A program made the translations under genes and the position numbers. A stretch of 40,272 nucleotides of DNA from a virus: the IMG/VR virus record IMGVR_UViG_3300009788_000182, positions 1-40,272 of that record, one strand, 5' to 3'. The notes beneath the pieces are model-generated. The model was not told the origin of the DNA. It saw nothing but the letters and a program-made list of their open reading frames with translations, and searched no databases. Shown here in pieces: positions 26,176 through 39,647 of the stretch (position 1 is the stretch's first letter; each line of letters begins with the position of its first letter).

Positions 26176-28212
26176 ATGGACAAACAATTACGCAGATTAC
26201 TTGAGTTATCCGGGCAACTTGGTAAAAATGAAATCGTGAAAAATCTTCAGGAAAGCCATGGTGACTCCGAGTCTTTAGACCATCAAGGTCCATTAGTTGG
26301 TCTTGAAGGCCCGTTCACGATGAAAAATGGCCGGGTTGTATACTATAACATCAATGAACAGAAGTATTATGACCGTATTACTGAACAATATCTTAATGAA
26401 AATGAAATAACAGCTTTGGAAGATGACACGCCGTTTAATAATGGTGTAATACTACATGCTACTCGTGGTGAAGAGAAGATTAATCTTCGTTTGGAAGGTA
26501 TGATGGCAATGCTCCCCATGGCAACTATGTTGAGAAGGAATGGCTATGGTAACTTCGAAATGACAGGAGAAGATGGAGAACGTGGCTCAATGCCTGACAT
26601 GGATGACGAAGATCCAGATATGGACGGTGAGCCCGATATGGATCGTGCGGAACCAGATATGGAACCAGAACCAGACACAGATGTTGATATGGATGATATG
26701 GACGGCGGTGATAGCCATGACGCTAAGATGGATACTCTTGCTGCGAAGGCAGAAGAACTAGCAGACCTAGCTAAAGATGTTGCAAGTGATGGTGAGAAGG
26801 AAGAAGAACCGGAGATGGATGTGGAACCCGACATGGAACCTGAGATGGAACCCGATGCGGAAGAGCCTGATTTGGGTGATGAAATGGGTGACGCAGAAGA
26901 TGATGGGCCTGAGATGGAAATGAGAGACGGAAGAACTGAAAAGAGAACACCATCCTTATCCAAAACTTGGGACAAATCCAACAAAAGGCGGCTGAATGTA
27001 AAAGATCGTCAAGAACGTAGAAAAGATCTGACTCGTTTCATGGGTATAAAACCAATATCATCTATGGGTTTACGTAGAGAAGGTGAGGAAGGCGGAATCA
27101 TAAGTAGCCTCATTGCCGAAAACAGCCCCGACGGTCAATGGCACTCAGACACCATGAAGAAACTTGCCGGATATTCCGAAGATGAACTAAAGTTTGTCAT
27201 TAAGGATGCTGGTGAAGCAGGCGAGTTAGCTGATAAGATGGGCAACGAAGAACAATCCGGCAAGTATGCGGATGAAATTCATTACGCAACCATGGAACTT
27301 AGAAAGCGTCAACAGGCAGCTATGGGTGAAGGCGAAGAAGTGGACGAAACCACGGAACATAAGAAAGGTAGTAAGCATACTAGTGCGTGGAAACCAACTT
27401 CAGCAGAAGATAAGAAATCATCAAATAAGGGTAGTCGTAAAGACGCCAAAAATGTTATACGTAACGACCTTAAGGAAGAGGAAGAACTTGAAGAACGTGC
27501 TCTTTCTGATGATGAAACAGCCAAGCTAGACCGCCTCAAGAAGAAGCATGAAGGTGGACCAATGTGGAAAGGTATCGTGGATGAGTATGGTGAAGAAAAG
27601 GGCAAAGATGTTTTCTATGGCAAATTAACAAAGATGGCTAAGGAAGGTGTGGAAGAACTTGAAGAGGAAGTGACCGAAGACGACGTGAGGAAGGTAATGG
27701 CCCAGCAAAAGAAGGAGGCACTTGCTAAGTATGCTAAGTCAAAGGACGCTGCTGACGCAACTGCCGCACGTAAGACCGGTGCTACTTCTGCCGAACTACA
27801 GAAAGCCGTTGATACTAAGGTTGAAGAAGCTGTTGATGCTACTTTTGTTGACAACAGTTCTATGCCAGCCAATGCTGTCGATGATATGGTTCAAAAGGCA
27901 GAGCGCACTGGTCAAGCTGACCGCGTTGGCACCAAGAACAAAACACCGGCTGAAGTGATGACGGCCATCAACACACGTATCAAAGAACTTGAAGCAGCAA
28001 TTGACAGATATGACGAGAAGGGCTTCAATGATGGTGGTGTCAAACCTAATGCAATAGAGGCTCTTGAGAAAATTAAAGAGCATCTGCAAAAGAATGACCA
28101 TGAAGGATTCATGGCAGCACAAATATACTTTACTACGCTGATGAGCCCAATTTGGGATTTGCTACCAGCACAAATGGTAAATTATCTGGCAAAGGGAAGT
28201 GACAGCGAATAA
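26176..28212 (+). CDS. Large acidic low-complexity protein, possible head or scaffold-related
   Basis: 678 residues. N-terminus MDKQLRRLLELSGQLGKNE (helical, CTS-like), then a small folded part (GRVVYYNINEQKYYD). A long Asp/Glu/Met/Pro-rich stretch (about 130-250, repeats like EPDMEPEPD) follows, then charged helical regions including AGYSEDELKFVIKDAGEAG, and a C-terminal globular domain (about 590-670). It is longer than T4 scaffold gp22 (269 aa). Its acidity and N-terminus suggest a capsid-internal or scaffolding role, inferred only. It is followed by a strong terminator. Confidence 0.8.
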   Translation: MDKQLRRLLELSGQLGKNEIVKNLQESHGDSESLDHQGPLVGLEGPFTMKNGRVVYYNINEQKYYDRITEQYLNENEITALEDDTPFNNGVILHATRGEEKINLRLEGMMAMLPMATMLRRNGYGNFEMTGEDGERGSMPDMDDEDPDMDGEPDMDRAEPDMEPEPDTDVDMDDMDGGDSHDAKMDTLAAKAEELADLAKDVASDGEKEEEPEMDVEPDMEPEMEPDAEEPDLGDEMGDAEDDGPEMEMRDGRTEKRTPSLSKTWDKSNKRRLNVKDRQERRKDLTRFMGIKPISSMGLRREGEEGGIISSLIAENSPDGQWHSDTMKKLAGYSEDELKFVIKDAGEAGELADKMGNEEQSGKYADEIHYATMELRKRQQAAMGEGEEVDETTEHKKGSKHTSAWKPTSAEDKKSSNKGSRKDAKNVIRNDLKEEEELEERALSDDETAKLDRLKKKHEGGPMWKGIVDEYGEEKGKDVFYGKLTKMAKEGVEELEEEVTEDDVRKVMAQQKKEALAKYAKSKDAADATAARKTGATSAELQKAVDTKVEEAVDATFVDNSSMPANAVDDMVQKAERTGQADRVGTKNKTPAEVMTAINTRIKELEAAIDRYDEKGFNDGGVKPNAIEALEKIKEHLQKNDHEGFMAAQIYFTTLMSPIWDLLPAQMVNYLAKGSDSE

Positions 28213-28235
28213 TTGTTCTTTAACAACAGAGAATT

Positions 28236-28261
28236 AAAAAGGGGCCTTATGGCCCCTTTTT
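28236..28261 (+). terminator. Bidirectional-type terminator 1 flanking the sulfotransferase
   Basis: AAAAA-GGGGCC-TTAT-GGCCCC-TTTTT: a 6-bp GC stem extended by an A/T tract on both sides. Confidence 0.9.
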
Positions 28262-28269
28262 AATAAATA
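28262..28269 (+). promoter_or_regulatory. Late-promoter-like AATAAATA before the sulfotransferase
   Basis: One mismatch from TATAAATA, directly after terminator 1 and 6 nt before ATG 28276. Being right behind a terminator, some promoter is needed here, but the spacing to the ATG is very short. Confidence 0.3.
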
Positions 28270-28275
28270 TCTTTT

Positions 28276-28890
28276 ATGGAATATCTTGTAGTTGGTACTG
28301 GTAGAAGTGGTACAGGGTTTATGAGTAGGTTACTTACCATGAACGGTATTCCCTGTGGGCATGAAAAGGTTTTTAAAATTAGACTTCCTAATGTAGATTA
28401 TGCAGAATGTATAAGATCTACACGTTTGAGGGGAGAAAGCAGTTGGCTTGCAGCACCTCATTTGGATGATATTAAAACATCTATGGCACCAGATTTACAG
28501 GTTATACAAATTACCAGAAATCCTATAAAAGTGATTAAATCATTTATTGCGTTGACGGTTAATACCAGTAATACAAATAAATCATTTGTTCCATACATTC
28601 CATTTTTAGAAAGTGATGATATGTTTGATGTACTAATACAATATTATATTTCATGGTATCGTTTTATTGAAAAACACGCTGAAATCACATTAGATATAGA
28701 TAACTTTGATTATGATTTATTATCATCATTTTTAGGAAAACCTATGAGACATCTAGATGAAATTATTAATACAAAAGATAATCTTAAAAAGGTAAAAATT
28801 AGTTGGGAAGTAATAGAATATGCTATTCAATCATCCTACAAATACCCTGAATTGAAAAAACTGTGTGAAGAATATAATTTTGTTGTTTAA
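28276..28890 (+). CDS. Sulfotransferase-like P-loop protein (auxiliary gene)
   Basis: 204 residues. N-terminal VGTGRSGTGFMSRLL (about 6-20) is the 5'-phosphosulfate-binding loop type of PAPS-dependent sulfotransferases. VIQITRNPIKVIKSF (about 76-90) matches the R-x-P...S 3'-phosphate site. The family moves sulfate from PAPS to alcohols, sugars or proteins. The gene is visibly more AT-rich than its neighbours and stands alone between two near-identical terminators. It may modify host surface or phage glycans; substrate unknown. No good Shine-Dalgarno is visible. Confidence 0.75.
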   Translation: MEYLVVGTGRSGTGFMSRLLTMNGIPCGHEKVFKIRLPNVDYAECIRSTRLRGESSWLAAPHLDDIKTSMAPDLQVIQITRNPIKVIKSFIALTVNTSNTNKSFVPYIPFLESDDMFDVLIQYYISWYRFIEKHAEITLDIDNFDYDLLSSFLGKPMRHLDEIINTKDNLKKVKISWEVIEYAIQSSYKYPELKKLCEEYNFVV

Positions 28891-28893
28891 TAG

Positions 28894-28918
28894 AAAAGGG
28901 GCCTTGTGGCCCCTTTTT
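28894..28918. terminator. Bidirectional terminator 2 flanking the sulfotransferase
   Basis: AAAA-GGGGCC-TTGT-GGCCCC-TTTTT, a one-base-different copy of terminator 1. It lies between the convergent sulfotransferase gene and the minus-strand gene ending at 28917 and can serve both. Confidence 0.9.
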
Positions 28919-29906
28919 ATTTCTTCTTGGAAGTTTTTCTAATAGCGTCCTTAACTATTTTATTTTTCTTACGGCGTTCATTAAGTTTTTTCATCCCCTC
29001 GATTTCATCAAAGAATTTATCCGGTTCTTGTGTTTCCATAACATCTATGGCTATTTCTGAGGAAGGTGTTTCCTTTGGGTTATTGATGGAGGACAATATA
29101 TCTTTAACCCTTTGGTTGGGATCAATAGTATCTTCAATAACCTTTTCTTTCTTTTTGGTAGACGGTTTTTTAGTTTTTGCTCTTTTGCTTGGAACTGGTT
29201 TCTTTTTAACAGCCGTTACTTCCGGGGTTACTACTGGGGGTGCCTCTACGGTAACTTCTATAGTAGCCTCTATGGGTGTGTCATCAACCTGAACTTCGTC
29301 CTTTTTAGTTTCCTCTTCGGTTGTAGGTTTTATTTTAGAACGAACACTCTTTGGCAATTCAGTTGGATATATGGTAGGAAACTTTCTGTTTTGAAATTTT
29401 TCTTCAGCAAGGTCTTGTTTTGATTTAAAGAATGGAAATTTATCTCGATGTTCTGCTCTTTCCGCAATTATTTTCTTAACGGTATTGATGGTTTGTATTG
29501 GTGCCTTCCCATCATCCTCGTTTTCGTTCGCCAACGCTTTATCTTTCTTTACTACTTTCTCTTTCTTTGCTGGTTTTTCTTTAGCAGGCTCCATTTCTAC
29601 TGGAATTCCAGAAACTTTTATGATTTCAGCAGAAACAACATTAAGTTTACCAGTAACAGGCTCAAAGAAGAATTCATCTACAACTACGCATAAAGAAAAC
29701 TTGTACGAACCATTAGGTATCAACCCTTTAGGTATAGTAACAGACCATTTTCTATCTTCACCCTTTACACAGTTAACATTATACCGTATACCGGATGATA
29801 TCTCTGTTTGAAAAGAAGCTATGCTAGAACTCAAGTCCACACCAGTGGCAGTCATCTCAAATTCGAACGTGCTATCGATTTTTGAACTTATGGTTATGTT
29901 TTCCAT
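28917..29906 (-). CDS. Two-part protein: N-terminal beta domain and long Lys/Glu-rich tail
   Basis: 329 residues. The first 100 form a probable beta-sandwich (FEFEMTATGVDL, WSVTIPKGLIPNG, FFFEPVTGKLNV). The remainder is charged, low-complexity sequence with KKDKALANENEDDG, a PVPSKRAKTKKPSTKKK stretch and a basic tail. Such two-part proteins occur among T4-like head-associated proteins, but no family is recognised. Its stop lies in terminator 2, and its start overlaps the stop of the gene at 29906-30292. Confidence 0.75.
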   Translation of the reverse strand: MENITISSKIDSTFEFEMTATGVDLSSSIASFQTEISSGIRYNVNCVKGEDRKWSVTIPKGLIPNGSYKFSLCVVVDEFFFEPVTGKLNVVSAEIIKVSGIPVEMEPAKEKPAKKEKVVKKDKALANENEDDGKAPIQTINTVKKIIAERAEHRDKFPFFKSKQDLAEEKFQNRKFPTIYPTELPKSVRSKIKPTTEEETKKDEVQVDDTPIEATIEVTVEAPPVVTPEVTAVKKKPVPSKRAKTKKPSTKKKEKVIEDTIDPNQRVKDILSSINNPKETPSSEIAIDVMETQEPDKFFDEIEGMKKLNERRKKNKIVKDAIRKTSKKK

Positions 29907-30292
29907 TAATTGCTATTCTTTTTTGTAAATTGTGTCGTTATATTCTTGAATTTGCTCTTAAAATTTGTAATGCTTACACCCATATTTTGTAATGTTTTGT
30001 TGATAAAATTGGCTATTTCCACTATCTTATCACTTCCTTCCTTACTAACTATATATTCCCGGTAGATATCATTTTCCCCCATTTTAACCGTTATACACAC
30101 AAGCTTCTTAAGCTCTTGTTTTTCATCATCGTCATCCCTGTGAATAGGAAATGGTGCGCCAACCCCACCGGGCCTCATAGGATTTACGTCTCTTACCTCG
30201 ATAAAAATTTTAAGACGAAATGGTCCTAATATCATGGCAGTGCAATCACCACCTAGACCATTGGTAAGTATACCACCCAAAGAATCAGCCAT
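29906..30292 (-). CDS. Hypothetical protein, possible virion component
   Basis: 128 residues. The N-terminus is glycine-rich (MADSLGGILTNGLGGDC), followed by beta strands (FRLKIFIEVRDV) and a C-terminal helix. It overlaps neighbours on both sides by a single base, so the three minus-strand genes form one operon. Function unknown. Confidence 0.7.
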   Translation of the reverse strand: MADSLGGILTNGLGGDCTAMILGPFRLKIFIEVRDVNPMRPGGVGAPFPIHRDDDDEKQELKKLVCITVKMGENDIYREYIVSKEGSDKIVEIANFINKTLQNMGVSITNFKSKFKNITTQFTKKNSN

Positions 30293-30870
30293 TATTGTGG
30301 TACTCTTTCAGCAACCTCATCCACACTTGGTGAACCTGTACCGTCTAATAAATCAAATACCTGTAACGGTGTCAATCCATCATCATCAAATACTGTCAAG
30401 GTTTTAGCCAATTTATCTATTTTAGTCCTATTTGACTCATACTTAAGTAATGTTTGAACCAAAATAATTGCACTATCTACATCAATTCTTAATGCCGTGG
30501 TATCTGCTTGTGTAGCGGCAATCACAAATCCCAATGAACCAGCAGACAAGTGATCAGTGACCGTTTCATCTAACACGGCATCTGCAATATCTTCCTTGAA
30601 ACTCTCATTACCTGAAGCTTGGTATCTATCATTTCCGCTTAATGATCCCCCGCCATCCACTTTAACCACATAATCAATATCGGTGTCATACGTGGTGAAA
30701 TTATATTTGTATAACCCCTCTCCTATTTCGATCATGGACTCCCCATCTATGACCTTAGTGTGGCTAGTTGGAGTTACTGTCCATATATCAATTGTGGGCG
30801 TCAATCCGTCAGCCGGAACACCATCTGAAGTGAAGAATGAATTAATTAATGTGTCTACTTCTATAGCCAT
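30292..30870 (-). CDS. Probable virion (tail/appendage) protein
   Basis: 192 residues. The N-terminal beta part (VDTLINSFFTSDGVPADGLT) is followed by ADAVLDETVTDHLSAGSLG, a motif also ending the spike-like protein at 39493 (VWDEDLTGHDVADSAG). Then comes a helix and RTKIDKLAKTLTVFDDDGLT with PLQVFDLLD. This C-terminal signature is common in structural proteins of marine phages. A ribosome site AAAGGAA precedes the ATG on its strand. Confidence 0.75.
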   Translation of the reverse strand: MAIEVDTLINSFFTSDGVPADGLTPTIDIWTVTPTSHTKVIDGESMIEIGEGLYKYNFTTYDTDIDYVVKVDGGGSLSGNDRYQASGNESFKEDIADAVLDETVTDHLSAGSLGFVIAATQADTTALRIDVDSAIILVQTLLKYESNRTKIDKLAKTLTVFDDDGLTPLQVFDLLDGTGSPSVDEVAERVPQ

Positions 30871-30886
30871 ATCGGTTCCTTTATTT

Positions 30887-30894
30887 TATTTATC
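30887..30894 (-). promoter_or_regulatory. Candidate late promoter (GATAAATA) for the minus-strand operon
   Basis: On the minus strand GATAAATA lies 16 nt upstream of the ATG at 30870, with AAAGGAA between them. One mismatch from TATAAATA. Confidence 0.35.
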
Positions 30895-30959
30895 AAAAGC
30901 TACTGAAAAGGAGGCTTATATCTAATTTATGATATATATAGTTGTTCACTTTCATAGGG

Positions 30960-30967
30960 TATAAATA
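30960..30967 (+). promoter_or_regulatory. TATAAATA box before the plus-strand virion genes
   Basis: An exact TATAAATA in the divergent 102-nt gap, ending 5 nt before ATG 30973. It probably drives the downstream virion genes, and with such spacing the first gene would be leaderless or start at a later codon (ATG 30979). Confidence 0.35.
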
Positions 30968-30972
30968 GTGTT

Positions 30973-31257
30973 ATGGGAATGATATTTACACGAAAAATCG
31001 GAGGATCATCAGTCTCCTTTCTAGATATTTGGCTTGCAACCAAAGATGAAGTGGAGTTGGAAGGCATACCATTATCTGCCGCGTTTACCTATTTTGTAAA
31101 TAAAGCTGTGGAGACCATAACTAAGGGTTCCATCACAAAAACATTTACATATAGTCCTGATGCCACCGTAAACACTATCAATGACGGTACGTATTTAAAA
31201 ACATTTGTATACAACCCAGACAAAACGGTGGATGAGATACAGGTTTCAGTAATATGA
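30973..31257 (+). CDS. Small hypothetical protein upstream of virion genes
   Basis: 94 residues; ATG 30973 or 30979. The C-terminal half has an internal near-repeat (KTFTYSPDATVNTINDG and KTFVYNPDKTVDEI), suggesting a short beta-hairpin duplication. Probably a minor structural protein or chaperone for the next gene. Confidence 0.65.
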   Translation: MGMIFTRKIGGSSVSFLDIWLATKDEVELEGIPLSAAFTYFVNKAVETITKGSITKTFTYSPDATVNTINDGTYLKTFVYNPDKTVDEIQVSVI

Positions 31258-31371
31258 TTGGATTAAATAAAGCACCCCAAATGGAACACAATAAATAAAT
31301 AACATATGAAAACTATACAGTTATACGCATTGTTTGGCGAAGTAGGATGATTTGAAAAATAGGATTATACA

Positions 31372-34017
31372 GTGGCAATTAGTTACTCATCAGGTACAGG
31401 AACTTTAATCACATCCTTTGTGATGACTGAGACCCTTGGCTCTCAGGCTCAACAAACAGGAAACAATACTGTTGTTGTATCAGATGATCTCGCCACGCTT
31501 GGAACCCAAGTAGGGGACAAATACACGACCTACACTAACCGGGCAATTTTGATAGACAGAACAGGCACTCCCCAGTTACGGGAAGTAATTAGCCAAGCTG
31601 CTGGTACTGGAAACACAATAATCCTAACTGTTGACCGTGACTGGGATACCAATCCAATAGAAACAACACATGATATTGATGTTTTTTATGATGTAGATGA
31701 TATTGAGACTGGAATTTCGGGCACATCTGGCAACGGTATTTCCCTAAGCGCAAGGACTGGACTGTACGAGCTGTCCAATGTCCTAACTGTTCAAGCTAAT
31801 GCTGGTTTGCACAACAGTTATGGTCAGGCATTAGAAGCTGATGACAGGGGATCAAATGTAGCAATTATAGTTGCCAGTACTGGATGGTTTGTATCTGGAT
31901 ATCCGGCGGGGGATGCATCTATTAATGGGGCAATATATACATCTTACAATGGATCTGCTGCTGAACCTAGCTGGCAATTTCAAAGTGGGTCCGTAGGTCG
32001 TTTTTATGACAGTCTTTTCTGGGCACAATTAGTTACTCAGCAATTTGAATGTGTTGCTGGATCTGATGTTCGTTTTGATGGATGCAAACTTTTAAAAAAT
32101 ACCGAAGAATTGCATTTGTATGATGCTGAATTAGTTAATTCTGGTATTGGTGGTTTAGCCGCTACAACGGAAATAGTCAGAGTCAATGCAGGAACTATAG
32201 CCAATGGTTTATCATTAGCTGATATTGATACATTAGATACTGTAGCTGATACGGCAGCAGAAACGATAGAACTTGAAGGAGTAGTTTTTTCTGGAGTAAC
32301 AGATTTATGGAATATTCGCCAAAATAAGACGATCAACATGATTGATCCTATCTGGGATGCAACGGTATATACTGATTTTACGTGGGTTGGCACAACCACA
32401 GGAAATGTATTAAATGACAGAAGAAGTATTAAAGTTACTGTGCAAACATCAGATGGCACCAAGTTATCAGATGCTCTTGTTAATGTATATGAAAATACCC
32501 AATCCGATGACCTTGTATTGGAGCTAGTTACAGCGGCAGTTACTGGGTTTGTTGAAGATTCTTTTATTTACCTAGCTCATGCCACCAATTCATCTACAAC
32601 TACCTACGGCGGTCATGCTTTGCAGAGTAATAAGTGGCTGTATCTACCTTTTGTAGCTGCACAGGTATCAGATGAGAAATTCAATGGTGTTATAGTTTTA
32701 AATCCTGATAATAATATCGTTCAGACGACTCAATCTACAGCAATAGCAGTAGGGTCTAGTGTTACATGGAATGATGATACCAATCCCTCTGAACTGTTTA
32801 ATTTTACACTTGGTTCTGGTACATTAGCTGTGGGTATGATCTTGACGTTTACTAGTGGTGCTACTGGAACCATTACCGAGGCTCTTGATGGAGATTCTGT
32901 TGCTGGAATAATTCATCTGAAAGACAGAAATGCAACGGCAATAACTAATGGGGATACATTTAGCAGAACAGGAGGCACAGCCGGGACATTTAGTGGCACA
33001 TATACAAATGACTCAAAGCAGCCATTTTCTATATGGATTGACGCAGCAACCATAACGTATCAAGCATTGTATGATTATATTGCAGCCATAACTACTGAAA
33101 CTACTCTAGGAGCAACTGGGGAATTAGTATGGGAGTGGTGCCGATCTGCTCAAACACAAGCATTCTATTCCACAGGATCGACCTTTTTGACTGAGAGATC
33201 TAATGGCAAGGGAATAATGATAGTCAATTCTGGGGGAGGTACATTGGATTATGTTACAGACGATGCAGGCGCTCAATGGTCTCCACCAGCAGTAATCACA
33301 ATAAGGGTAGAAGGGGTATCAGAGGGGGCTGCTGTTGTAGTTATAGCTGATGAAACCGTTGGAAGTATGACAGAAGGAGATATAATTTTTGAGAAATTTG
33401 CTGACTCTGATGGAGTTGCAGAGGTTACAAATTTTAAGTATGAATCCGCATTTAATCCATCTGGTTTAGATGTTGTTGTTAGAGCCCGATCATCAGGTAA
33501 TGCCATTGCTGTTTTACAAGATGATAACGGTTCTTTTACTGATGAGACAACGGAGGCTAACAGCTCAACTACTGATGATATGCTACTCCTTCCCACAGTC
33601 CCTGTTGTTAATGAAGACCGCTATTTATTTGGTCATACTGAGAAGTTTAGTCAATTGAAATTAAATGTTAGTGTGGTTGGTACTGGTGGGTTTACAATGA
33701 CTTGGCAATATTGGAATGGTGCTTGGACCAATTTATCAGGAGTATCTGATGGTACAAGCAGTTTTTCCGTGTTGGGGGAAAATATCGTGTCGTGGACAAT
33801 GCCGGGGGATTGGGCCACAACTACTATTAATGGCCAAGGTCCATTTTATTATGTAAGAGCCGCATATACAGCGGGATCAGTAACAATAGTTCCGAAAGGT
33901 AAAAAATGTACTTTAGATGTTACCAAATATCTACCATTTGCACAAGATCGTATTGTTATTTCTACTGGGTTAGGTGTGGTTGCTACATGGATTGAAGATG
34001 CGATTGCTAGTTTTTAG
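31372..34017 (+). CDS. Large beta-rich virion structural protein (probable tail/appendage)
   Basis: 881 residues, almost entirely beta-type: Thr, Ser, Gly and Asp rich with no catalytic motif. GTG 31372 has AGGA 8 nt upstream. The central part (about 120-330) alternates short strands as in beta-helices. Near residue 780 a carbohydrate-binding-like unit appears (MTWQYWNGAWTNLSG followed by GQGPFYYVRAAY), a motif recurrent in phage tail and baseplate proteins. It likely contributes to host recognition. Confidence 0.8.
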   Translation: MAISYSSGTGTLITSFVMTETLGSQAQQTGNNTVVVSDDLATLGTQVGDKYTTYTNRAILIDRTGTPQLREVISQAAGTGNTIILTVDRDWDTNPIETTHDIDVFYDVDDIETGISGTSGNGISLSARTGLYELSNVLTVQANAGLHNSYGQALEADDRGSNVAIIVASTGWFVSGYPAGDASINGAIYTSYNGSAAEPSWQFQSGSVGRFYDSLFWAQLVTQQFECVAGSDVRFDGCKLLKNTEELHLYDAELVNSGIGGLAATTEIVRVNAGTIANGLSLADIDTLDTVADTAAETIELEGVVFSGVTDLWNIRQNKTINMIDPIWDATVYTDFTWVGTTTGNVLNDRRSIKVTVQTSDGTKLSDALVNVYENTQSDDLVLELVTAAVTGFVEDSFIYLAHATNSSTTTYGGHALQSNKWLYLPFVAAQVSDEKFNGVIVLNPDNNIVQTTQSTAIAVGSSVTWNDDTNPSELFNFTLGSGTLAVGMILTFTSGATGTITEALDGDSVAGIIHLKDRNATAITNGDTFSRTGGTAGTFSGTYTNDSKQPFSIWIDAATITYQALYDYIAAITTETTLGATGELVWEWCRSAQTQAFYSTGSTFLTERSNGKGIMIVNSGGGTLDYVTDDAGAQWSPPAVITIRVEGVSEGAAVVVIADETVGSMTEGDIIFEKFADSDGVAEVTNFKYESAFNPSGLDVVVRARSSGNAIAVLQDDNGSFTDETTEANSSTTDDMLLLPTVPVVNEDRYLFGHTEKFSQLKLNVSVVGTGGFTMTWQYWNGAWTNLSGVSDGTSSFSVLGENIVSWTMPGDWATTTINGQGPFYYVRAAYTAGSVTIVPKGKKCTLDVTKYLPFAQDRIVISTGLGVVATWIEDAIASF

Positions 34018-34068
34018 ATGTAAATTGACAAATAACCCTCCATTATTTTGAAATAAGTTTTCATTTCA

Positions 34069-34076
34069 TATAAATA
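34069..34076 (+). promoter_or_regulatory. T4-type late promoter (TATAAATA)
   Basis: An exact match in the 83-nt gap, 24 nt before ATG 34101, leaving room for AGGAGATG. This is the best placed late-promoter candidate in the window. Confidence 0.5.
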
Positions 34077-34100
34077 AAAGTATTACAGGAGATGCCATAA

Positions 34101-36698
34101 ATGACAACTATATCACTGCTCGGAGGAGATTGGGAGTATCAGTTTGAGGATGAGACTACTGATCCTGCCGCAAATGTTGGAACACGAATGCTAGTATATG
34201 TATCTGGGGTTGTACGCTCGACAAATGAAGTGTATTCAGCCCTAGCTGATGTCACAGATGAATTTCAAGCAATGGGATTTAAAAATCCAATGCTTCCTGT
34301 AACTCCGAACGCATATACGATGGAAAATAAAGCTTTTATTTCAAGAGCTTCGTCAGAACAGCTTAAAGAAGGAACAATTACAGCAGACTGGGCATTAGTT
34401 GGTGTTGCTGGAAATGATGCCGGTCGAGGAGTATTACGGGTACCGTATACAGGTGGTACCAACTTTGATTCTGGTGATGTTGGAAAACTTGTTACTCAGG
34501 GCGATTCTGGTGATACTGGAACTTTATTAGATTTTGAAATAGAACCCGATGGTACCCTTGTGGCGTGGATTAGGCCAGACGATTCTACCCCCACAACGGG
34601 AGATATTTTTGATGGTACTGGTACTCTTGTGGTTACTAATGGTACTGGTTCAAGTACTTCTAGTACTGCCGCAACTTCTGGGCAAACTAGATTTACAGCT
34701 ATTCAGGCTATTGGTAGTGTACCTACAGCCACCGAAGTTTATGTTGTTCAAAATAGAATTAAACTAAAGGATGCTGTTACTGATAGTTTCCAATTCTGGG
34801 CCACAGATACTGCCGTTTCTTTGGGTATTGTTTCTGTTTTAATTAGAACACAAAGTGTAGGAGCATTGATTGCCGATGGTGACCTTGAAGTATTCGCTAG
34901 AAGGTATACGTCATTGTATGATAATTTCCGATTGAACGTAGCAGCGGGTGGTTTTTCCGCTTTGCCGTTAGCTTCTGCACCAGATATTAACAACACTATT
35001 GGTTATAGAAGAAATGTAATGACTGGAAGTGGGGGCACATGGACTGTAGGAAATGCCTTGTATGTTGGTGCTTCATGGGCAGCGGCTACAATAAAGGGTG
35101 TTATAACTGCTGAAGATTCCGGTACAATAGAATATTATTTAATTGGTGACTTAACTGATTTAACTGGTTCTGAAGCCATAAAAGAATATGATTTCGTAGC
35201 TGAAGGTGATGGTGATGCCACGGCTACTGGTGCTGCTGGTGGATCAATCCCTAACTTGCTTGGGCCTACTGATCCCGCTGCAACGCAAGGCGGATCAGTA
35301 ACAATTACAAACGGTAACACAACCCGTGATCATGATAACACTGGAGTAGCAGAACCTTATTCTGTTATAATTGATGCACAAGGCGATGTTCCTATTGCTA
35401 AGGTGTACGAGCGTATCAAGTATGTAACTCGTCGTGGTGCTGATGCAGCGGATTTATTCGGAGCTGGCGTAAATGTACCGGGAGAAACGTACCGTGGATT
35501 GGAAGGGTTGTATTATTATGACGGTTTGACATCTGGACCATTTGGCGAAGGTGAAGACATCGATCACAATGGTGGTACATGGACAGCCCGTTCAATAGCT
35601 GTACGTACAACTGTGGTAGGTGAGGATGTGGCTCAGATATACTTTACAACGACTGACGAACAGACATCTCTTGATAGTGTTGGAAACAATGATCAGATTG
35701 ATGATGAAAGTTCGTCCTCTGTTGACATACAAACGGATGGTGCTGGTGGTGCAGCGTTATCTATTTCCTCTCCTAAGTCGTCTCCGTTTGGTACGTTCAC
35801 AGGTTCACAAATTTTCGGTGCCCAAGGTATCGATTTTCGTAATCCCGGCCCAGATGATACTCAAGCATATATTTTGACTGATGACCTTGGTACCTTGCGT
35901 ACTCCACCTAACACACTATCATTTACAGTTGCTAATACTAGAGCGGCTGATAGAATTCTTGTTGCTAGAGACACAGGTACTTCCGGTGTAATTGATAAAG
36001 ATCAATTTGGTGGAATAGATACTCCGGGTGGATCTTATAATAGTATCGACGATGCGGAGGTTAGGGCTGCTGGTACTGTAGATGGGGAAGTTCCTACTAT
36101 TGGTGTAGTTAGAGTTGTAGAGACCACACTTGAAGAAGAACATAGATATTACTATTCATCCCGTACTACTGGATCAAACGGTGTATTTACTCTAAAGGCT
36201 ATTGCTAATAGTCCATTTACTGCTACAGCAGGGAGTACCACCCAAGTTGTTGATGATGGTGAAAACTTTGTTACAAACGGCGTTGAAGTAGGAATGCTTA
36301 TTAGAAATACTTTTGGTGGTAAAACCACACATATTTGGGAAGTAACTGGGTTTGCTCAAACTGGGGCCACACCAAATGATACATTATTGCTGAGACCATT
36401 ATATGGTTCCCCAGATGACTTTGATGTAGGTGACACATTTACAATTAATTTGTTAATTCAAACTTATGCTACTTCTGACGATGTATATGATACAATTCTA
36501 GATTATGAAGAAGATGTAGGTGATGATGTTACACCGGGATCAATTGTGAATACATTTGTTAAGTTAGGTGGTACATTTGGTACAGTAGTTCAAGTGAGAC
36601 AGGGTAAAGTTATTCTACCATTTGAACAAAATCAGGACCAAGGACAAGGCAATACAACGGTAACCACTGTACGTACACCTGATTCAATTGCTGTATAA
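34101..36698 (+). CDS. Large virion structural protein
   Basis: 865 residues, beta-rich, starting MTTISLLGGDWEYQFEDETT. The first 70 residues form a conserved-looking N-terminal module; later segments read FWATDTAVSLGIVSVLIRTQ and FARRYTSLYDNFRLNVAAGG. A good ribosome site (AGGAGATG) and a late-type promoter precede it. It resembles structural proteins of T4-like marine myoviruses; exact location in the virion unknown. Confidence 0.8.
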   Translation: MTTISLLGGDWEYQFEDETTDPAANVGTRMLVYVSGVVRSTNEVYSALADVTDEFQAMGFKNPMLPVTPNAYTMENKAFISRASSEQLKEGTITADWALVGVAGNDAGRGVLRVPYTGGTNFDSGDVGKLVTQGDSGDTGTLLDFEIEPDGTLVAWIRPDDSTPTTGDIFDGTGTLVVTNGTGSSTSSTAATSGQTRFTAIQAIGSVPTATEVYVVQNRIKLKDAVTDSFQFWATDTAVSLGIVSVLIRTQSVGALIADGDLEVFARRYTSLYDNFRLNVAAGGFSALPLASAPDINNTIGYRRNVMTGSGGTWTVGNALYVGASWAAATIKGVITAEDSGTIEYYLIGDLTDLTGSEAIKEYDFVAEGDGDATATGAAGGSIPNLLGPTDPAATQGGSVTITNGNTTRDHDNTGVAEPYSVIIDAQGDVPIAKVYERIKYVTRRGADAADLFGAGVNVPGETYRGLEGLYYYDGLTSGPFGEGEDIDHNGGTWTARSIAVRTTVVGEDVAQIYFTTTDEQTSLDSVGNNDQIDDESSSSVDIQTDGAGGAALSISSPKSSPFGTFTGSQIFGAQGIDFRNPGPDDTQAYILTDDLGTLRTPPNTLSFTVANTRAADRILVARDTGTSGVIDKDQFGGIDTPGGSYNSIDDAEVRAAGTVDGEVPTIGVVRVVETTLEEEHRYYYSSRTTGSNGVFTLKAIANSPFTATAGSTTQVVDDGENFVTNGVEVGMLIRNTFGGKTTHIWEVTGFAQTGATPNDTLLLRPLYGSPDDFDVGDTFTINLLIQTYATSDDVYDTILDYEEDVGDDVTPGSIVNTFVKLGGTFGTVVQVRQGKVILPFEQNQDQGQGNTTVTTVRTPDSIAV

Positions 36699-36766
36699 TA
36701 CTGTAATGTACACCATGTGGAATTATCGTATATATTGTATAATTGCTTAATTAATGGGGTAACAAT

Positions 36767-37321
36767 ATGGGTCAGGATAATTCTAATCTTGGATTAACTG
36801 GAATAGATTCCATTCGCCTGAATGGAATGAAATTGGATGCCCTTCCGATTGCTGAATCAGCAATAGCAAAACAGCAATGGTCTGAAGTTCAAGCCATGGA
36901 CATTAAAAACAAAATTAACAGTATACTTGGGCGATACCCCAAACCAAGTGTTGCCTATATAGACGGCAGAATTATTGAATGTCAAGATAATATTAAACGT
37001 ATCAAGAAATTTAAATCTGATCAGGATACCATGATAAATGAATATTCTATGCATATACGCATGTGTGTGCATAGAGATACTGAAATATCTAAATTAGATC
37101 AAGTGGATGATATGGATGAAATAAAACGGCTTAAACTTCAATATCCACCATATGATATTATCGCAATGGAACAACAAATCATACAATGTAGAGAAGCTAT
37201 GATCCGTTGTGATGATGTTGTTGATGAAGAAAATAACAGTATAAATACGTTGTATGGAGTTCTTTCCTTATGTAAGCAACGAGATGAAGAATTAAAGCAA
37301 TTTGGGGTTAAAGTGGGGTAA
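36767..37321 (+). CDS. Helical protein between virion genes
   Basis: 184 residues, mostly charged helices (IECQDNIKRIKKFKSDQ, IIQCREAMIRCDDVVDEEN), coiled-coil prone. GGGG precedes ATG 36767. It could be a chaperone or connector for adjacent large proteins. No family recognised. Confidence 0.7.
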   Translation: MGQDNSNLGLTGIDSIRLNGMKLDALPIAESAIAKQQWSEVQAMDIKNKINSILGRYPKPSVAYIDGRIIECQDNIKRIKKFKSDQDTMINEYSMHIRMCVHRDTEISKLDQVDDMDEIKRLKLQYPPYDIIAMEQQIIQCREAMIRCDDVVDEENNSINTLYGVLSLCKQRDEELKQFGVKVG

Positions 37322-37324
37322 GCC

Positions 37325-39493
37325 GTGACAACTCGATCAGACGTAGATGTCGAATTTAACACCAGCCCGCGAATTGCTGAAGTAGCTTCTCCTTCTGTTG
37401 AAATTACGATGCAAGACCTAGTGGATACTCTTAGAAAACAAGAAGATTCCTTTGTGGGTATGTCATTTGATAAGCTCATCAATGCTTCTGGTAAAGAGGA
37501 CTTGGGCGGCGGCGTTAAAGTTGGTATTACTGTTGCTATGCAAAACCTTCTTCTAGCGTTTGCTGGTAGAACTGTTCCGGCAGAAACAGGCACAGTAACA
37601 GGCTCTCCAGCATCCCCAGTAGCTGGTAGACAAATAATACAAGATACTGCCGCTTTATTTATTTCTAATAATGTGCAACGCGGATCATTGATTGTTAATT
37701 TTACTGATCAATCTATTGCCGAGGTTGTATCCGTAGATTTTGAAACACAACTCACAACTAAAACATTAACAGAAGGTATTGGTAATACCTATGATATAGA
37801 TGATGAGTATAAGGTATGGAACGTTGTTCAAGTATCTGCAACCGGCGGTAATCTTGTTGCTGTCAATGATCTACAAGATGTTATTGATGCCATTTTACCC
37901 ACAGCATTCACCCAAGTCATATTAACCGCATCATCTTCAGCAACATTACAAGAACAAGCGGATATTCAATACGCATCGTTTGGTGGTGGTGTAACTATTG
38001 ATGTTATTGGCGGTGAAGCCGGGACAGTGTTCCCCGCCGGAACACCCAGACAGCCATCTAATAATTTAATAGATGGTCATACAATTGCAGATGATAGAGG
38101 ATTTTTTACTTTTCTCATAAAAGGGGATATAACAATTGACGCATCGGTGGATGCCGATGATGGCCACACTTATGAAGGGGAATCAAAAGCAAGAACAAAG
38201 ATAACATTATTAGATGCCGCTAAGATTGCAGATAGTGAGTATAAAAATGCAACAATTACTGGGGTTTTGGATGGAAGTTCGTCAATTAGCAACTGTGTAA
38301 TAGAAACTCTTACTTTTTTAAATGGGTATATTGATCACTGTATTTTGTCTGGAACAATAACTTTAGGTGGCGGTGTAGATGCTCATATTGTAGATTGTTG
38401 GTCAGGTGTTCCGGGGGGATCTACCCCAACTATTGATATGGGCGGTACCGGTCAAGGTTTAGGATTACGTAATTATAACGGTGGCATTACGTTAACAAAT
38501 AAAACTGGAACAGAGGATGTATCAATTGATATGAATAGTGGTCAAGTAATCATCGATGACACGGTTACAGACGGAGATATTTACTTAAGGGGTGTAGGAA
38601 CTTGGACAAACCGAGAGACCTATACTGGTGGGGCAAATGTTGTTAATCAATTGATCGACGGTGTTTTAGTACAAGAAATAGAACAACTCTCTTATACTGG
38701 AGTAGTACATATAGATACTGTTGGTGGTTCGAGTGGAACTGCATTTCCAATAGGCACACTTAGTACCCCTGTTGATAATATGGCCGATGCATTACTTATT
38801 ATGGCCAGTCGTGGTATAGAGACGGTGCATATACATAGCGATTTAACTCTTTCATCTGGTTCGTATAATAATTTATTTTTAGGGAACGGCATTGAGACAA
38901 CTACAATAACCATTAGCGGAAGTGCCACAGTAGACGGGGCTAGGTTTGGAGATTGTACTCTAACTGGTTCTGTAGGTGGAAGTGTGGTGTGCACCGATGC
39001 TGTACTGAGAGACTTGACATCATTCAATGGGCAAGCAACAAATTGCGGGCTTCAGGGAGATATAGTGTTATCCGGTGATGTAATATCTAGATTTGTAAAT
39101 TGTTATAATCATGCAATTGTACCTGCTACTAGAACCACTATAGATATAGGTGGAAGTGGTAACAGTGCTGTATTTCATGGATACCAAGGTAATTTAGATA
39201 TTGATAATATGAGTGGTGCAGCAGACGCTGCTGTTATTGGCTTACATGCTGGAAATATTAGACTTTTATCTGGACTTACTGATGGAAATGTTATATTGTT
39301 TGGTATAGGAACCATAGAATCTGATGCAAGCAGCGGTATAACACTTAATATAGATGGTTTGGTTAACAAAGAAGTTATATCTGAGACAGTATGGGATGAA
39401 GATTTAACAGGACATGATGTAGCGGATTCAGCAGGAAAAGAACTTACAGATGCCCGTATTAATGCAGCTAATGCTTTTGCTGTATCAGCATAA
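37325..39493 (+). CDS. Spike-like virion protein with duplicated beta-helix domain
   Basis: 722 residues from GTG 37325 (GGGG upstream). An N-terminal helical region (to about 90) precedes two tandem copies of a domain of about 225 residues. Copy 1 (about 225-460) opens VTIDVIGGEAGTVFPAGTP; copy 2 (about 460-690) opens VVHIDTVGGSSGTAFPIGTL. In both, 'NCxL/I' turns lead to a TIDxGGxGxxxxxxxYxGxL/I stretch and a G(D/N)(I/V)xLxGxGT end. This suggests right-handed beta-helices. The C-terminus has the SETVWDEDLTGHDVADSAG motif. Likely a tail spike or fibre. Confidence 0.8.
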   Translation: MTTRSDVDVEFNTSPRIAEVASPSVEITMQDLVDTLRKQEDSFVGMSFDKLINASGKEDLGGGVKVGITVAMQNLLLAFAGRTVPAETGTVTGSPASPVAGRQIIQDTAALFISNNVQRGSLIVNFTDQSIAEVVSVDFETQLTTKTLTEGIGNTYDIDDEYKVWNVVQVSATGGNLVAVNDLQDVIDAILPTAFTQVILTASSSATLQEQADIQYASFGGGVTIDVIGGEAGTVFPAGTPRQPSNNLIDGHTIADDRGFFTFLIKGDITIDASVDADDGHTYEGESKARTKITLLDAAKIADSEYKNATITGVLDGSSSISNCVIETLTFLNGYIDHCILSGTITLGGGVDAHIVDCWSGVPGGSTPTIDMGGTGQGLGLRNYNGGITLTNKTGTEDVSIDMNSGQVIIDDTVTDGDIYLRGVGTWTNRETYTGGANVVNQLIDGVLVQEIEQLSYTGVVHIDTVGGSSGTAFPIGTLSTPVDNMADALLIMASRGIETVHIHSDLTLSSGSYNNLFLGNGIETTTITISGSATVDGARFGDCTLTGSVGGSVVCTDAVLRDLTSFNGQATNCGLQGDIVLSGDVISRFVNCYNHAIVPATRTTIDIGGSGNSAVFHGYQGNLDIDNMSGAADAAVIGLHAGNIRLLSGLTDGNVILFGIGTIESDASSGITLNIDGLVNKEVISETVWDEDLTGHDVADSAGKELTDARINAANAFAVSA

Positions 39494-39503
39494 TTTTTTG
39501 TTC

Positions 39504-39532
39504 TTGCATTTTTGAAAAATTTGGTGTATACT
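39504..39532 (+). promoter_or_regulatory. Sigma70-like promoter before the NMN adenylyltransferase gene
   Basis: TTGCAT (39504-39509), a 17-nt spacer, TATACT (39527-39532). The same -10 as the gp32 and gp44 promoters, consistent with early expression of the NAD gene just downstream of late genes. Confidence 0.55.
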
Positions 39533-39565
39533 CCGCTATATATTTAAGAGATACGTGAATTCTGA

Positions 39566-39580
39566 TGATCGGAGCGATCA
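39566..39580 (+). other. Leader hairpin before the NMN adenylyltransferase gene
   Basis: TGATCG/CGATCA with loop GAG, a perfect 6-bp stem about 67 nt before the ATG at 39648. It would lie within the transcript from the 39504 promoter. Confidence 0.4.
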
Positions 39581-39647
39581 ATATACAGTAAATGTATCAA
39601 AGTTATAAAGGTTTACGGCATTTTATTGCACTAAGGAGCTTAGGCAG

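Follow-up and report, generated by a model that had tools for sequence, protein, structure and literature searches.

Organization of the locus

The window, i.e. the whole stretch of 40,272 nucleotides analyzed here, is an incomplete viral contig of an uncultivated T4-like jumbo myovirus. Its TerL is 51% identical to those of the Xanthomonas phage XacN1, which has a genome of 384,670 bp, and of the Stenotrophomonas phages CM1 and RAS14; the window represents about one tenth of a jumbo genome. A sister contig (L002), with a TerL identical to that of the window, overlaps its first part.

The gene under study lies between two intrinsic terminators, T1 and T2 (Table 1). An earlier note on this DNA had described them as differing by one base in the loop and this was borne out: the loop is TTAT in T1 and TTGT in T2, the hairpins being otherwise the same (predicted stem energies of -21.6 and -19.7 kcal/mol, respectively). 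T1 is symmetric and predicted to stop transcription in either direction. T2 overlaps the stop codon of the 329-aa minus-strand gene and is therefore best seen as serving two convergent genes in both directions, rather than as the private end of a cassette. The 329-aa gene was also tried as a homologue of XacN1 ORF217 and no homology was found.

Table 1. Positions of genes and terminators around the variable slot of the window.
Feature	Coordinates	Strand	Remarks
678-aa gene, left border of variable slot	26176..28212	+	C-terminal homology to XacN1 ORF218 and the corresponding RAS14 gene
T1, intrinsic terminator following the 678-aa gene, symmetric (bidirectional)	28233..28264	.	Hairpin ends 11 bases before the sulfotransferase ATG
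PAPS-dependent sulfotransferase-like gene	28276..28890	+	204 aa, ATG start
T2, intrinsic terminator common to the sulfotransferase gene (+) and the convergent minus-strand gene	28893..28918	.	
329-aa lineage-specific gene, convergent with the sulfotransferase gene	28917..29906	-	No relative found
128-aa gene, a possible divergent homologue of XacN1 ORF217	29906..30292	-	Weak, single-pair E 0.008
NadM-like nicotinamide-nucleotide adenylyltransferase domain, cut by the contig end	39648..40272	+	Right border of 11.4-kb region

The protein has the fold and motifs of a PAPS-dependent sulfotransferase

The AF2 model computed with a 50-sequence alignment of the family had a pLDDT of 89.8 and a pTM of 0.88 (pLDDT 31 from the single sequence). 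A 5′-phosphosulfate loop, GTGRSGTG (residues 7-14, GTGRSGT motif), follows the first strand and is framed by strand 3-6 and helix 13-22, while strand 75-80 and helix 83-96 form the 3′-phosphate site, R81-x7-S89. A further family motif, [DE]xSW[LM]AxP, occupies residues 54-61. Across the alignment, E30, W57, A59 and R81 are invariant (50/50), and R10 of the 5′-phosphosulfate loop, H29, S56, P61 and S89 are each found in 49/50 sequences. E30 and the neighboring H29 are, by sequence, suitable candidates for the catalytic base. The window protein thus retains the cofactor and candidate-base residues that are nearly invariant in the family, and these agree with what sulfotransferases require, namely a Lys/Arg in the 5′-phosphosulfate loop, a serine on the 3′-phosphate helix and a His/Glu base (reviewed in PMC11625862).

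The best Foldseek matches were PAPS sulfotransferases. With VIA-align, Z scores were 13.8 for TPST1 and for the olefin-synthase sulfotransferase domain, 12.7 for Cpz8, 12.2 for SgdX2 and 11.6 for 3-OST-1, and all of the 50 matches listed were sulfotransferases. A search of the PDB with the family profile (50 relatives) returned solved sulfotransferases first and almost only; at E values up to 1, every match was named as a sulfotransferase, or was a sulfotransferase domain or relative such as SgdX2.

Shikimate kinases appear lower down the Foldseek list and one PHROG match is labelled 'hydrolase', as might be seen if a different P-loop protein, such as a shikimate-kinase-like protein or other kinase, had been mistaken for a sulfotransferase. 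We consider this very improbable, given that GTGRSGTG has no Walker A lysine, that the 3′-phosphate arginine and serine are conserved, and that neither the 50 listed VIA-align entries nor the PDB profile matches at E up to 1 include anything other than sulfotransferases and their domains or relatives. The PHROG in question, phrog_10855, weakly matches five members of the sulfotransferase family and its label may be wrong.

In a single-sequence Pfam search, the window protein scored 24.1 bits against PF13469 (Sulfotransfer_3), under the curated cut-off of 27, and we therefore file it under the PAPS-dependent sulfotransferase superfamily rather than PF13469. A match to PF13469 at E up to 0.1 was seen in 9/12 family members. 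The NodH/PF13469 carbohydrate sulfotransferases have an RXG motif in the PAPS loop in common with the window family (NodH in PMC11625862), but differ from the window protein by this score.

The earlier note had called the product a sulfotransferase with PAPS-binding motifs and proposed looking for a PAPS pocket in a predicted structure. The GTGRSGT loop, R81-x7-S89, the fold and the PDB profile search all agree with this designation and, since the predicted fold and motifs are those of a sulfotransferase, a PAPS pocket is expected at the fold and motif level. The gene probably encodes a compact, apparently intact PAPS-dependent sulfotransferase, for which the predicted fold and motifs would imply activity.

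The gene occupies a slot that is filled differently in related phages

Genes between about 19.8 and 28.2 kb of the window, followed by the NadM-like gene at 39.6 kb, are arranged in an order that XacN1 and RAS14 share. The interval between the ORF218-type gene and nadM is about 640-670 bp in XacN1 and RAS14, vs. 11.4 kb in the window. In XacN1 (L037 15481-15696) and RAS14 (L038 15367-15609), the first ORF behind the ORF218 terminator is an unannotated BFD-like [2Fe-2S] ORF (PF04324, E values of 1.6e-11 and 3.7e-13, respectively). It starts a few bases past the hairpin, without a Shine-Dalgarno sequence, and the gene that comes next is convergent, on the minus strand. The layout is thus that of the window (terminator, ATG a few bases later, convergent minus-strand gene), but the protein is unrelated to the sulfotransferase and the terminator differs in sequence.

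The earlier note had suggested comparing the locus in relatives. Direct reading of the syntenic slot of XacN1 and RAS14, at only 51% TerL identity to the window, revealed no sulfotransferase gene, another gene being in its place. The family profile also returned nothing from XacN1, RAS14 or the sister contig, although the search was run without a positive control and the absence thus rests on the reading of the slot. Because the same layout holds a different terminator and a different gene in the window and in XacN1/RAS14, the position behind the ORF218-type gene is a variable accessory slot.

The 11.4-kb region of the window (28213-39647) encodes three large proteins (881, 865 and 722 aa) and has almost no recognizable relatives. 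The match of the 722-aa protein to Fibritin_C is weak and under the cut-off. In the 881-aa protein, a stretch of 156 aa is similar to a protein encoded near the sulfotransferase gene of locus L069 (28.8%, E 2e-7). In XacN1/RAS14, the counterpart of the NadM-like gene encodes a protein with two functions, NMN adenylyltransferase and Nudix, and further downstream lies a gene for a phosphoribosyltransferase acting on nicotinate or nicotinamide (NAD salvage).

The sulfotransferase gene, described as AT-rich in the earlier note, is indeed the most AT-rich of the 48 window genes and atypical in composition. Its GC content (0.30) and GC3 (0.18) are the lowest of all (z about -3.8 and -3.3, respectively), compared to means of 0.39 and 0.34 for the remaining genes. 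Other lineage-specific genes nearby also lean to low GC3 (0.23-0.35). From the slot comparison and this composition, we infer that the gene was acquired horizontally. Novel ORFs of T4-like phages are mostly of normal GC content and not moron-like (PMC1524935), making an AT-rich, terminator-bounded sulfotransferase gene a modest exception.

The two terminators belong to the stock of the phage group

The core GGGGCCTTNTGGCCCC occurs at only two sites in the window, T1 and T2, with no matches in 100 shuffles, a control that addresses random sequence and not the terminators of relatives. T1 and T2 have identical 6-bp stems, three of four loop bases and A and T tracts in common, amounting to about 25 bp with one mismatch, within which the longest perfect run is 13 bp. 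The flanks are identical at 9/40 and 10/40 positions (12.5 and 12.7 expected from shuffles), and no similarity outside the hairpin and A/T tracts was detected in this comparison.

The earlier note had proposed that the matching terminators provide homology for gain or loss of the cassette. The shared 25 bp, together with the AT-rich gene sitting between the two hairpins, would fit with T1 and T2 having arisen from one terminator by duplication together with the gene, and with their acting as short direct repeats. Several observations make this quite unlikely. RAS14 has seven sites with at most three mismatches to AAAAGGGGCC-N4-GGCCCCTTTT, of which one, GGGGCC-TTAT-GGCCCC, has an identical loop; the A4-GGGGCC stem is found again in this phage with several loops. 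Additional AAAAGGGGC hairpins are present in RAS14, and XacN1 has such a hairpin too. The similarity of T1 to T2 is therefore not unusual, the same stem being a stock terminator in a relative, and it does not exceed that of the stock terminators of the phage group. Given a stock stem and equal base frequencies, random tetraloops agree at three or more of four positions in about 5% of cases (13/256). In addition, the longest perfect run is short, the slot of XacN1/RAS14 is filled by another gene behind a different terminator, and the flanking similarity test led us to reject T2 as a duplicate of T1. As far as these sequence comparisons go, the match is explained by the stock terminators of the phage group rather than by a special recombination device. 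Loss of the gene by slippage between the short repeats is conceivable but improbable.

Expression of the gene

A moron, in the strict (lambdoid) sense, has its own promoter and its own terminator. The designation of the gene as a moron in the earlier note holds in part: T2 lies directly behind the stop codon (albeit shared with the convergent gene) and the gene is an outlier in composition, but we found neither a promoter nor a Shine-Dalgarno sequence of its own. Between the stop codon of the 678-aa gene and the ATG, there was no convincing sigma-70-like promoter, scan matches being no more numerous than in shuffles, and no Shine-Dalgarno sequence was recognized before the ATG. A candidate late promoter (TATAAATA) just upstream of several start codons was dropped, with 6 sites vs. 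6.7 expected.

Only about a dozen A/T-rich bases separate the T1 stem from the ATG which, together with the missing Shine-Dalgarno sequence and the shuffle-level promoter scan, raises the question of whether the ORF is carried along unexpressed or in decay, directly behind a strong terminator. We think this unlikely: the 204-codon frame is intact, with every family-invariant residue kept, and the orthologous place in XacN1 and RAS14 has a different intact ORF equally close behind a terminator, so that genes located here appear to be retained. The identical arrangement of the BFD-like ORF suggests that it and the sulfotransferase gene have a common mode of expression, which could consist of read-through or rely on a phage-specific promoter that overlaps the hairpin.

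The subfamily and its closest known systems

Direct searches of viral contigs with the window protein and with its neighbors gave no match, and we found no relative closer than XacN1 and RAS14 that spans the site. A degenerate DNA pattern for the P-loop identified 14 viral stretches, and a profile search 55 viral loci plus 4 in bacterial assemblies, or about 45-50 distinct loci after removal of duplicates. The nearest relative, at locus L057, is 38-39% identical over its full length and is sister to the window protein (support 98/90). In two contigs (L086/L085 4351-5680; 3300017963_000242 and 3300017971_000652), two diverged family copies lie in tandem in one phage, and the first has lost the P-loop arginine (GTGACATG).

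No match was obtained by tblastn against 50,697 deposited phage records, either with the window protein (E 0.01) or with three other members (E 0.001); up to an E value of 10, the window protein had two marginal matches only. Since four queries match nothing in these records, the subfamily appears, at the sequence level, to be confined to uncultivated viruses and a few assemblies.

Closest in size (195-212 resolved residues) and identity (20-21%) are two small bacterial PAPS sulfotransferases, Cpz8 and SgdX2 (PDB 9kf1/9kf2 and 8y9p; Z 12.2-12.7). According to the entry titles, Cpz8 is a Streptomyces caprazamycin-pathway enzyme and SgdX2 a 'bacterial activating sulfotransferase'; unlike the window protein, both are non-viral. 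TPST1 and TPST2 (PDB 5wrj and 3ap1), with the best Z score (13.8), have a 5′ loop, a 3′ loop and a His/Glu base as in the window family (PMC9774471), but are eukaryotic Golgi enzymes of about 275-300 residues with 12-14% identity to the window protein. Phage-encoded genes of the sulfotransferase family, of the Sulfotransfer_3 type, occur in the marine Synechococcus phages S-SCSM1 and S-SRM01 and in OM43 phages, where their function was called unclear (PMC10580990). The S-SCSM1 protein (281 aa, 14% identity) is a structural match only.

Family members adjoin, or are fused to, glycosyltransferases

We compared the genes directly adjoining family members with genes at least 3 positions away in the same loci. 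GT1 and GT2 glycosyltransferases accounted for 8/80 and 7/80 adjacent genes, respectively, vs. at most 3/78 glycosyltransferases among distant genes (Fisher p about 0.005; the counts, taken from family tallies, are rough, and loci that are related do not count as fully independent). Glycosyltransferases also lead among the PHROG models of adjacent genes, which include GtrB-like O-antigen conversion. Some family members are fused to GT2 (L058, L069, L088), to an FkbM methyltransferase (L067) or to GT41 (L053). At L057, the surroundings read as a run of glycosyltransferases, methyltransferases and a UDP-GlcNAc-epimerase-like gene, names that we gave by reading the sequences, model searches contributing only in part. 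No recognizable glycosyltransferase was found within the window itself, a contig of about one tenth of a jumbo genome.

Some other family members lie near capsid or tail genes. At six loci (L059, L073, L076, L078, L084 and L089), the sulfotransferase gene is shortly downstream of an apparent HK97-type capsid gene, several with a sugar epimerase nearby, and this arrangement is possibly a virion-glycan module. In the literature searched, we found no direct precedent for a phage sulfotransferase linked to virion glycosylation.

The acceptor could instead be a peptide or protein tyrosine, as for TPST, or else a nucleoside, secondary metabolite or other small molecule, as for Cpz8 and SgdX2. These enzymes have Z scores (13.8, 12.7 and 12.2) that equal or exceed those of glycan sulfotransferases (about 11.6). 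Global fold similarity does not report the acceptor, however, and the family is adjacent or fused to glycosyltransferases; we thus give a non-glycan acceptor a lesser, though appreciable, chance. A role in surface or glycan modification, raised in the earlier note, is plausible. Because the family adjoins or is fused to glycosyltransferases, and some members lie near capsid or tail genes, our best guess is sulfation of a glycan on the virion or cell surface, this link being drawn from relatives that share 20-39% identity, and some of which come from phages of a different type.

Discussion

The best explanation of our data is that the gene encodes a PAPS sulfotransferase, most likely directed at glycans, and is an accessory gene in a variable slot of a jumbo myovirus of the XacN1/RAS14 kind, flanked by ordinary terminators. 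We put the probability of this reading at roughly 60%. In the mechanism we propose, PAPS would be supplied by the sulfate-assimilation pathway of the host, its 3′-phosphate would be held by R81 and S89, and R10 would stabilize the leaving phosphosulfate. With the invariant E30 (or the neighboring H29) as base, the enzyme would pass sulfate on to a hydroxyl group, which most likely belongs to a carbohydrate carried either by a glycosylated virion protein of the phage itself or by the host surface. The accessory gene would have been acquired into the slot directly behind the terminator of the ORF218-type gene, with T1 ending the upstream operon and T2 insulating the converging genes.

The enzyme class is already known and phage sulfotransferases have been reported before; taken alone, this single locus is an ordinary accessory gene. 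The slot comparison offers a view of accessory gene exchange in jumbo phages, with different genes settling directly behind the terminator of the same operon. The adjacency and fusion to glycosyltransferases lead to a testable statement, that these phage sulfotransferases sulfate glycans. More tentatively, and with odds we would place somewhat below even, the family may represent a distinct subfamily of compact glycan sulfotransferases, essentially restricted so far to uncultivated viruses, which phages use alongside glycosyltransferases of their own to decorate virion proteins or the infected cell with sulfated sugars. If true, this would represent a novel type of glycan modification by phages.
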